A DNA stretch of 35,385 bases from Rhodospirillales bacterium. Its GTDB lineage: Bacteria; Pseudomonadota; Alphaproteobacteria; Rhodospirillales; Casp-alpha2. The position numbers were made by a program, and so were the translations under genes. Below the pieces are notes generated by a model. It did not search any database, was not told the origin of the DNA, and saw nothing but the letters and a program-made list of their open reading frames with translations. Location of the stretch: positions 1-35,385 of the forward strand of contig JAJFID010000384.1 in NCBI GenBank assembly GCA_021775325.1, read 5' to 3'. Position 1 is the first letter of the stretch, and each line of letters begins with the position of its first letter. Below, piece by piece: positions 31,422-35,385 of this stretch.

Positions 31422-31467
31422 ACCTGTCAGACGTATGTATTTGCCTCTCATTTTACGGAGTCTTGAT

Positions 31468-32775
31468 ATGAGCACTCAGGAAACTGGTACCGCAACCCAT
31501 GATGGTTACTTCACCAAAACCCTCGGTGAAACAGACCCGGAAATCCACACAGCCCTCATGGCCGAAGAAGACCGGCAGCGTGATGGCATCGAGTTGATTG
31601 CGTCCGAGAATATCGTCAGCAGGGCAACTCTGGAAGCGGTTGGATCCGCCATCGTCAACAAGACAGTCGAAGGCTATCCCGGCAAACGTTACTATGGCGG
31701 TGCTGTTCATGCCGACGTGATCGAACAACTGGCCATTGACCGCGCCAAACAGTTGTTCGGTGCCGCCTATGCCAATGTACAGCCCCATTCAGGTAGCCAG
31801 GCCAATCTGGCCGTTTTTCTGGCTTTTCTGAAACCTGGAGACACCGTCCTCTCCATGGACCTGTCTGCCGGTGGGCATCTCAGTCATGGCTCGTCTGCCA
31901 ACCTGACGGGAAAGTGGTTCAACATTGTGCACTATGGTGTTAGTGAGGTTGACGGTCTGATTGATTACGACGACGTCTTGCGCCTCGCCCACGAACACCG
32001 TCCGAAACTCATCATTTGCGGTGGCTCCGCCTACCCCCGGGCCATCGACTTCGCCCGCTTCCGTGCCATCGCCGATGCAACAGATTCCATATTGCTGGCG
32101 GACATGGCGCACTTTGCCGGTCTTGTTGCAGGCGGCGCACACCCGAGCCCGGTTCCACACGCCCACGTATCCACGGCGACAACCTACAAGAACCTGCGCG
32201 GGGTCCGTGGTGGTATCATTCTCGCTCAGGACGTCAGTCTCGAACGAAAGCTGAACTCGGCTGTGTTTCCGGGCGTACAGGGTTCCGTTATTCTGAATGC
32301 CATCGCTGCCAAAGCCGTATGCCTGGGCGAAGCCCTTCGGCCCGAGTTCAAAACCTATGCGCACGCGGTGCTGAACAACGCCCGGATGCTGGCTGCAACA
32401 TTGGTAGAACGGGGTGTGGATATCGTGACAGGTGGTACGGATACACCATTGTTGCTGATTGACCTGCGCGGCAAAAACCTGACTGGTGCAGAGGCGGCAG
32501 AAAGCCTCGAACGCGCGGGCCTCACCAGCAACAAGAATGGAATTCCTGGTGATACACAGCCACCAACCATCACATCAGGCCTTCGGTTCGGCGTATCAGC
32601 GGGCACAACCCGTGGGTTCGGCCAGCAGGAGTTTGAGATCATCGGCAATCTGATTGCCAATGTGCTGGATGCAGCCCCTTCAGGCGGAACAGACCTCACA
32701 TCCATTGAACACACAACGCAAGCACAGGTTAAGCAACTCTGCGAGCGGTTCCCCATCTATCGTGCACCTGTATAG
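31468..32775 (+). CDS. Serine hydroxymethyltransferase-family PLP enzyme, possibly alpha-methylserine hydroxymethyltransferase-like
   Basis: 'GIELIASENIVSRATLEAVGSAIVNKTVEGYPGKRYYGG', 'ANVQPHSGSQANLAVFLA', 'TATTYKNLRGVRGGIIL'; SHMT-like with active-site substitutions (see findings). Confidence 0.88.
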   Translation: MSTQETGTATHDGYFTKTLGETDPEIHTALMAEEDRQRDGIELIASENIVSRATLEAVGSAIVNKTVEGYPGKRYYGGAVHADVIEQLAIDRAKQLFGAAYANVQPHSGSQANLAVFLAFLKPGDTVLSMDLSAGGHLSHGSSANLTGKWFNIVHYGVSEVDGLIDYDDVLRLAHEHRPKLIICGGSAYPRAIDFARFRAIADATDSILLADMAHFAGLVAGGAHPSPVPHAHVSTATTYKNLRGVRGGIILAQDVSLERKLNSAVFPGVQGSVILNAIAAKAVCLGEALRPEFKTYAHAVLNNARMLAATLVERGVDIVTGGTDTPLLLIDLRGKNLTGAEAAESLERAGLTSNKNGIPGDTQPPTITSGLRFGVSAGTTRGFGQQEFEIIGNLIANVLDAAPSGGTDLTSIEHTTQAQVKQLCERFPIYRAPV

Positions 32776-32790
32776 GAGTCTGTTGCCTGA

Positions 32791-32812
32791 ATGGCGAACC
32801 GTGGCTCGCCAT
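32791..32812 (+). terminator. Hairpin ATGGCGA-ACCGTGGC-TCGCCAT after the glyA homologue
   Basis: Perfect 7-bp arms 15 bp after the stop codon; weak following T content. Confidence 0.45.
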
Positions 32813-33096
32813 CTCAATTTCAGGCCGCCGCATCAACAGCTTAAAGAAGAAACTAGGGAACATAAGGTGCATCGGAACGCATGGGGTTGCATAACGTTTC
32901 CGCAAAGCACTATTGACGGAGAGTTATTCGATGTTGTTTCCAGCTATTCCTTCGAGTATTGAGGGGATGATTTAGCCTTTTGGCTCAGAACCCGAGAGAA
33001 TGTAATTGTCGAGCAGTCAAGATTGCCCGACGTCAACGTTTATGGAACAAACTGGCTTGACTACATGGGAGAGCTTCTCTTGCAAATATCTGATTT

Positions 33097-33843
33097 TTGC
33101 AGACTCTGAGTTTCCTGGATGATGATAAAGTGACGCCCTTAGAATCGGCCCTCTTGTATTCCCTATGTGCTGGCCTCTCCATTCTGGTTGGTGGCGCATT
33201 GGCAGCCATTGAAGGGGTGTTTCCGGATTGGCATCGCCAGGAATTTCGGCATGGAATTATGTCATTTGGCGGCGGCACCCTGCTGGCGGCAGTCGCTTTT
33301 GTCCTGGTACCGGAAGGAATTCACAACACACCAATTTGGTTAGTAGTTTTGAGCTTTGTATCTGGCTCTATCGTTTTTATGGTGCTGGACGTATGGATAC
33401 AAAGAACCGGGAATTCACTATCTCAACTGTTTGCCATGTTGTTGGATTTTATTCCGGAGGCTATTGCTCTTGGCGTTTTTTTTGCCCTCAATTACCCTCT
33501 GGCTGGTTTTTTGGCCCTGTTAATCGGTATCCAGAATCTGCCTGAGGGATTCAACGCCTACCGGGAAGTGCTCGCCTATCCCAAAGCAACCCGGGGCAAT
33601 ACTCTTCTCATTTTCTTTGCAATTTCGTTAATTGGCCCATTAGCAGCCTTCCTGGGTTTTCAGTTGGTCACCAGCCATTTGAACCTGCTCAAGATTGTCA
33701 TGTTGGGAAGTGCTGGCGGAATTCTTTATCTGGTGTTTCAGGACATTGCACCGCAGGCAAAGCTGGAAAACAGATGGTTGCCCGGTTTTGGGGCCGTTTG
33801 CGGGTTCTTGGTTGGGATGATCGGCTATTTGATAATGACATAA
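33097..33843 (+). CDS. ZIP-family divalent metal transporter
   Basis: Multi-TM; 'LLDFIPEAIALGVFF' and 'IGIQNLPEGFNAYR' match the paired ZIP metal-site helices; TTG start. Confidence 0.85.
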   Translation: MQTLSFLDDDKVTPLESALLYSLCAGLSILVGGALAAIEGVFPDWHRQEFRHGIMSFGGGTLLAAVAFVLVPEGIHNTPIWLVVLSFVSGSIVFMVLDVWIQRTGNSLSQLFAMLLDFIPEAIALGVFFALNYPLAGFLALLIGIQNLPEGFNAYREVLAYPKATRGNTLLIFFAISLIGPLAAFLGFQLVTSHLNLLKIVMLGSAGGILYLVFQDIAPQAKLENRWLPGFGAVCGFLVGMIGYLIMT

Positions 33844-33877: not shown

Positions 33878-34721
33878 GGCATTGTCAGAGGAAAACGACG
33901 ATGGCTGTAGAAGGCAGTGTCAGAGGAATGTCACTCGGCAAGTAGAATTCCCTGGACAATCGATGTCAGGCCAAAAGTTGACGCCATTCACTCAAAGCAA
34001 TGGAGCGGTTTAACTTGAAGGTTTTACGATCTAAAAGATGACGTTCTAGATTGAAATGGTTTTGAATTGAAGAGTGAATGGAAGCGAATTTCTGAAGCGT
34101 GGCAAAGCTTTTGAATTTCGCCATCGCTCGTTCTCGTCGTCGAAACGGTTGATGAGAATTTTCACACCGATTGTTTAACCATCGGCCAGTTACTTGGCGC
34201 GAACCGTTTCCAATCACCTTCATTGCGGCTCGGTAGGAGCGCAGGCGATCCGTAACAACTTCTACCGGTGATCCGAATCGTTTCATCGCTTTCTTCAGAA
34301 ACTTGAGGGCCGCTTTGCGATCACGCTTTTTCGTCACGAAAGCTTCAAGAAACTCACCTTCGTGATCGACTGCCCGCCATAAGTAATGAGTTTCGCCGTT
34401 GACACGAACGAAAACCTCGTCCAAATGCCATTTCCATTGAGTACACTCCCGCCTCGATATAATCCGTTTCTTTCTGATCTCTGCGGCAAACATTGGACCA
34501 AACCGGTTCCACCACGCTCGGATGGTTTCATAACTAACATCTATTCCACGTTCATGGAGCAAGTCTTCGACTTGGCGCAACGACAACGGATATCGGACAT
34601 ACATTATCGCGGCCAAGCGAATGATGTCGGGTGAAGTTTTGAAGTACCGGAATGGATTTCTCATTCCTGGACGCTACGAAAGCCAATCTACAGACTCAAG
34701 CTCGTTTCCTCTGACAATGCC
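33878..34721 (-). mobile_element. IS6-family insertion sequence, 844 bp, 17-bp perfect terminal inverted repeats
   Basis: GGCATTGTCAGAGGAAA at 33878-33894 and TTTCCTCTGACAATGCC at 34705-34721 bracketing an IS6-type transposase; no matching 8-bp target duplication. Confidence 0.9.
33966..34664 (-). CDS. IS6-family DDE transposase
   Basis: 'RYPLSLRQVEDLLHERGIDVSYETIRAWWNRFGP', D 'WHLDEVFV', D 'VVTDRLRSYRAA', E 'NNRCENSHQPFRRRERAM'. Confidence 0.96.
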   Translation of the reverse strand: MRNPFRYFKTSPDIIRLAAIMYVRYPLSLRQVEDLLHERGIDVSYETIRAWWNRFGPMFAAEIRKKRIISRRECTQWKWHLDEVFVRVNGETHYLWRAVDHEGEFLEAFVTKKRDRKAALKFLKKAMKRFGSPVEVVTDRLRSYRAAMKVIGNGSRQVTGRWLNNRCENSHQPFRRRERAMAKFKSFATLQKFASIHSSIQNHFNLERHLLDRKTFKLNRSIALSEWRQLLA

Positions 34722-35385
34722 GTGTGGGCGGTTGGAGGAGTCAGAGTTTCTCTCCCGCCTCTACAACCTGGCTAACGTTCCGTCGGACGACGCCCGCTTT
34801 GGCGATGCGGCAGGTGACATCTGGCAGCACCGAGTGAACAATTTCGACTGGGACGATGATTGGGTTTTCTACGACCGCCGATTTGGTTTAATGAATGGCG
34901 ATGACGAGACCTTCCTCGCATTCCTGTGCGAAACTATTCATCCTGTAGTAAGATCAGACCCGAGCGAAGCCGAAAAGATTCGTCAGCTTTACAACCAATA
35001 CCTTCGCAACGACGGATTTCAGATAGTCGAAAAAAGTAGGCTGTCTGGAAAGCCGATCTTCGTTGGCCGTTATACAGGTGTGGGCGTTACACCAGCTATC
35101 GCTGCTGCGAAGGCGACTTTGGCTGGAGCAGATCCGGGATATCTGTTCCAACAGATCACTCGTATGGAGGCGGCTGTCGCGAACGACCCTGCTTTGGCCA
35201 TTGGGACAGCCAAGGAACTAGTGGAGACATGTTGCAAGACGATTCTGGAGGCGCGCGACGTTACATTCGACAAATCTGACGACATCCCTAGGCTAATTAA
35301 GCTGACTGCTAAGACACTAGAACTTACACCTGACGACATACCCGACAAAGCGAAGGCAGTCGATACGATCAAACGGCTACTAAGC
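34717..35385 (+). pseudogene. Probably 5'-truncated abortive infection family protein (AbiJ-NTD3-like plus Abi_C-like), open to window end
   Basis: Continuous 223-codon frame: MPCGRLEESEFLSRLYNLANVPSDDARFGDAAGDIWQHRVNNFDWDDDWVFYDRRFGLMNGDDETFLAFLCETIHPVVRSD...GTAKELVETCCKTILEARDVTFDKSDDIPRLIKLTAKTLELTPDDIPDKAKAVDTIKRLLS; ATG lies in the IS terminal repeat. Not in the ORF track, presumably because no stop lies within the window. Confidence 0.75.

Follow-up and report, generated by a model that had tools for sequence, protein, structure and literature searches.

The window analysed here, a stretch of 35,385 nucleotides, is the whole of contig C317 from an assembly of 427 contigs that is 89% complete, and its right end carries an IS6-family insertion sequence followed directly by the body of an abortive-infection type gene (here abi). 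This body occupies 34722..35385 on the + strand, from the last base of a Trp codon to the contig end, and the first ~23 codons are absent. An earlier, sequence-only reading of this DNA had reported a frame open from 34717 to 35385 (223 codons) up to the window end, and the frame check agrees and finds a real gene body there; the frame is actually open from 34534, so that 34717 is one among several possible starts (ATG at 34621, 34624 and 34717; TTG at 34639 and 34732). The same reading described the gene as missed by the list of open reading frames, which is correct in that it was unlisted, but solely because its frame is still open where the contig stops, and with open ends allowed the list gives abi as 34621-35385. 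A Pfam scan matches the translation to PF18860 (AbiJ_NTD3, E=7.3e-52, profile positions 22-167 of 167), as had been suspected from the letters, and within the window PF14355 (Abi_C) appears as a 33-position fragment, the first 33 positions of the profile (E=0.07, below the cut-off), fragmentary because the window and the contig end there.

Extending the assembly past 35385, as the sequence-only reading had proposed, leads to contig G000:C241, which carries the frame on with no early stop or frameshift. The last 69 bp of the window (35317..35385, +) overlap exactly with C241 positions 139-207, from where abi continues to a stop codon at C241:382-384; C317 and C241 are joined here on the strength of this overlap and not of reads, and an overlap of this kind is presumably what remains where a short-read graph branches. 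C241 thereby completes abi in frame with 58 further codons and a natural end at C241:384, for a total of 281 codons counted from the ATG in the IS end, uninterrupted by any stop or frameshift. In the joined protein Abi_C is complete (PF14355, E=5.7e-27, positions 2-82 of 83), which upholds the C-terminal assignment first made from the window, and the protein is likewise matched by the PADLOC model for AbiJ (E=9e-13). HEPN RNases carry the motif R-X4-6-H, with the R-X6-H form expected. At the C-terminal end of abi, on C241, stands RNHYGTGH (R-X6-H), kept in nearly all of 14 aligned relatives. AbiJ has been assigned to HEPN (Anantharaman et al., 2013, PMC3710099). Judged by these matches, the homology of 34717-35385 is far above chance level and abi is a member of an already known family, AbiJ_NTD3/Abi_C, with a HEPN-type Abi_C end. 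A search for solved structures by sequence with the Abi protein returned no match, and a fold search returned HEPN structures solely as weak matches with non-significant E-values.

The insertion sequence (809 bp, 33913..34721, - strand) has the left repeat GGCAGTGTCAGAGGAA and the right repeat TTTCCTCTGACAATGCC, these terminal repeats (33913-33928 and 34706-34721) matching at 94%, and it encodes an uninterrupted transposase of 232 aa (33966..34664, -; PF13610, E=1e-43) that points away from abi and is identified as IS6 by NF033587 (187 bits against a cut-off of 125). Its limits were set from relatives' copies, about 72% identical, to which similarity starts at ~33909 (L109) and ends at 34716-34727 (L109, L112). 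The claim that an IS6 end adjoins abi stands for the family and for the terminal repeat, which ends at 34721, but the element starts at 33913 and not at 33878; a boundary at 33878, in the outer repeat, was rejected because relatives' copies begin at the equivalent of ~33909-33918. Left of the intact element, 33878..33912 (35 bp) holds an extra IS6 terminal-repeat tip, GGCATTGTCAGAGGAAA (33878-33894, an inverted repeat at 17/17), and the 18 bases behind it, probably left over from an earlier IS6 end and possibly from an older one that was inverted. GTGTGG also occurs in the right flank of the IS6 copy in a sister species (L112); a reading of these letters as belonging to the IS was rejected, as homologues carry TGG TGT GG natively, and their occurrence in both places is taken as chance.

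The missing N-terminus

A scan of genome contigs gave 57 related loci, the best of them 79% identical across the whole gene, and of about 60 relatives nearly all have about 22-24 residues ahead of (C)GRLEE, where the closest relatives read MKISQITRRDIVDAIxxExVNW; the native N-terminus of abi is therefore missing in the window. The absent segment holds an invariant Arg (56/56 homologues with sequence there) and a near-invariant Trp (57/58 homologues covering the position). The match of the window to AbiJ_NTD3 starts at profile position 22, and the intact homologue L003 matches 1-167; in the predicted structure of L003, residues 5-17 form a helix in a confidently modelled N-terminal domain, with mean pLDDT of 75 and 86 for the first two ten-residue blocks. 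Homologues with Cys at this point (L005, L008) read TGG TGT GG, against ...AATGCC|G TGT GG in the window, and the IS6 end therefore falls inside the Trp codon.

From this comparison the first ~23 residues of abi are truly lost, the protein being that much shorter than all homologues with sequence there, and by their conservation these residues do not look dispensable. A native start at GRLEE was rejected, homologues reaching further N-terminal and not natively beginning at the break in the window; the proposal that abi is N-terminally truncated at the IS6 end proved right, with IS6 replacing the first ~23 codons. Most differences between abi and L003 fall at third codon positions (134, against 44 at first and 23 at second positions), and from this divergence together with the uninterrupted 281-codon frame it follows that abi either was truncated recently or remains in use. 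In many homologues that are about 45-52% identical (L018, L020, L031 and others) the frame is open at least 100 codons further upstream, which suggests a longer AbiJ_NTD3 form with an added N-terminal part.

Origin of the junction

The IS6 flanks, CTGTAGAA to the left and GTGTGGGC to the right, share no 8-bp target duplication, an absence to be expected if an adjacent deletion or recombination took place; an IS26-type adjacent deletion leaves one IS and splits the target duplication between two products (PMC9602291). To the left of IS6 lie leuB, a second glyA and a ZIP-like gene, and to the right, by way of C241, tRNA-Met and rpoD, and the distance from leuB to rpoD is about 1 Mb in the complete relatives G391 and G402 and about 62 kb in G403. 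Unmatched flanks would fit an IS6-mediated deletion or rearrangement, and the same picture at the junction would result from an inversion, from one IS copy recombining with another or from a misassembly. I consider it unlikely that the junction is an effect of assembly, with IS6 having split abi in the normal way, the contig misjoining the flanks of two IS copies and the N-terminal part lying elsewhere. The missing duplication, the origin of the two flanks in regions that are distant in relatives and the fragmented state of the assembly all lend this some weight, whereas a DNA search of the assembly turned up neither another copy of this IS6 nor a fragment of its ends, the window contains no N runs, and abi would still be broken by an IS even if it were true.

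Adjoining IS6 at 31467-33843 are the second glyA-like gene and the ZIP-like transporter gene, and since a search of 30 related genomes did not turn up the latter, the contig may end on its right side in accessory DNA.

A second broken version and the neighbours of abi

The tip of C241 (C241:1-138, L077) is not abi but the tip of an IS5-family element; it ends in AATGGGTCCTGACC, followed by CTAG where abi begins, and its reverse strand encodes the start of a transposase, VSNHFWLTQRQLDRIKPHFPLS, which is 59% identical to sites in plasmid records (tblastn), several of these matches being annotated as IS5-family transposase. Copies of the tip in relatives likewise end next to CTAG, and the 22-residue IS5 peptide, a very short query, had no match in a Pfam scan. 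The CTAG at 35317..35320, which is the IS5-family insertion site in the C241 version, is uninterrupted in the window version, and this break lies about 200 codons further into abi than the IS6 break. Two broken forms of abi thus exist in the assembly, one cut by IS6 and the other interrupted by an IS5-family element. The simplest reading would be a mixed population in which one locus occurs in two versions; two abi copies in a single genome, one cut by each element, are possible and seem to me quite improbable. In their favour, the sequence upstream of these 69 bp differs between the two contigs; against them, the overlap is exact and the assembly has a single downstream continuation (tRNA-Met, rpoD).

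After abi, C241 carries tRNA-Met, rpoD, dnaG, carA, carB, greA and trxB (the proteins named by eye from their sequences), and no further defence genes adjoin abi on this continuation or on the window side (leuB, glyA, ZIP-like). The sequence-only reading had expected a defence island to start past the window, an expectation rejected for the C241 continuation, where the neighbours are housekeeping genes. The closest homologue, L003, is also solitary, amid seemingly metabolic and signalling genes, and abi appears able to travel alone. HipA-like genes, again named by eye, lie near the L010 homologue. In a relative, about 20-30 bp separate an IS6 copy of the same group (L109, G398:C490, 2244-3078) from this tRNA-Met by rpoD, a spot that may be insertion-prone.

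A new start from the insertion sequence?

The candidate start ATG at 34717..34719 (+) does lie in the right IS6 repeat and in frame with abi, as originally claimed and as the sequence and frame check confirms. An in-frame ATG is expected by chance at one of three junctions with this repeat, and because the frame is open from 34534, the ATGs at 34621 and 34624 are equally possible starts. No ribosome-binding-like sequence is present upstream of ATG 34717 (AGCTCGTTTCCTCTGACA), and no promoter-like site was seen leading out of the IS6 end towards abi. I therefore find it hard to credit that a shortened protein, begun at a start provided by IS6 (ATG 34717, or 34621 in a longer fusion), is still a defence effector, perhaps under altered control: the ATG is in frame, the frame is open through the IS6 end, the coding sequence is undamaged and Abi_C is complete on C241, but neither of the sites that such a start would need was seen, the segment with the invariant residues is lost, and chance alone would often enough place an ATG in frame. 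With rival starts available besides, the functional IS-supplied start of the sequence-only reading is left unsupported, and nothing in the sequence supports expression of abi from the IS6 end, possible as it may be. Far-fetched is the bolder idea that the IS6 end serves as a mobile start codon, giving a shortened, differently controlled effector in one part of the population that is IS5-silenced in another part, in which case the locus would vary between cells by IS traffic.

Discussion

The probable explanation, in my opinion, is that the abi of the window is a remnant of a solitary, horizontally spread Abi-type gene by tRNA-Met/rpoD in an alphaproteobacterium that is being lost through IS elements. 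On this explanation, IS6, which is seen adjoining abi where the first ~23 codons and all upstream sequence would otherwise stand, would have come to lie there when an IS6-mediated deletion or another rearrangement joined two distant chromosomal sites. The second version of the locus is seen with an IS5-family element at CTAG ~200 codons further in. The intact protein may work as its relatives are thought to, with an N-terminal domain that would sense phage and would restrain or trigger the C-terminal HEPN RNase, so that the infected cell is stopped. Lacking the conserved N-terminal helix and its own promoter, the abi of the window most likely yields hardly any functional protein or none at all. 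Against decay count the 281 codons free of stops and frameshifts and the divergence biased to third positions, and a certain amount of protein could be made from the in-frame ATG or from the longer frame that begins at 34621.

What this locus offers is a small, clean example of IS elements eroding a phage-defence gene through two events in one assembly, a truncation with rearrangement and a simple insertion, both in abi. Knowledge of the Abi protein as such gains little from it; the many intact relatives, which have no sequence-matched solved structure, merit testing.

Comparison with known systems

Like the AbiJ-NTD3 HEPN proteins (PF18860 and PF14355), abi has the order NTD3 then Abi_C over its whole length and shares the R-X6-H (RNHYGTGH) at the C-terminal end, and the closest intact members, 66-79% identical to it, come from several bacterial lineages; unlike them, the abi of the window is without its first ~23 residues and its native upstream region. 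With the IS6 family (IS26-like) the window element shares a transposase above the curated cut-off and terminal repeats of 16-17 bp, and it differs from typical members in having no 8-bp duplication and an extra repeat tip 35 bp outside its left end; with IS6 adjacent deletions it shares the single IS copy left behind and the unmatched flanks. The tip of C241 resembles the IS5 family (CTAG target) in its conserved end and the adjoining CTAG, and unlike a full IS5 element, C241 carries only the last 138 bp, with one end seen.
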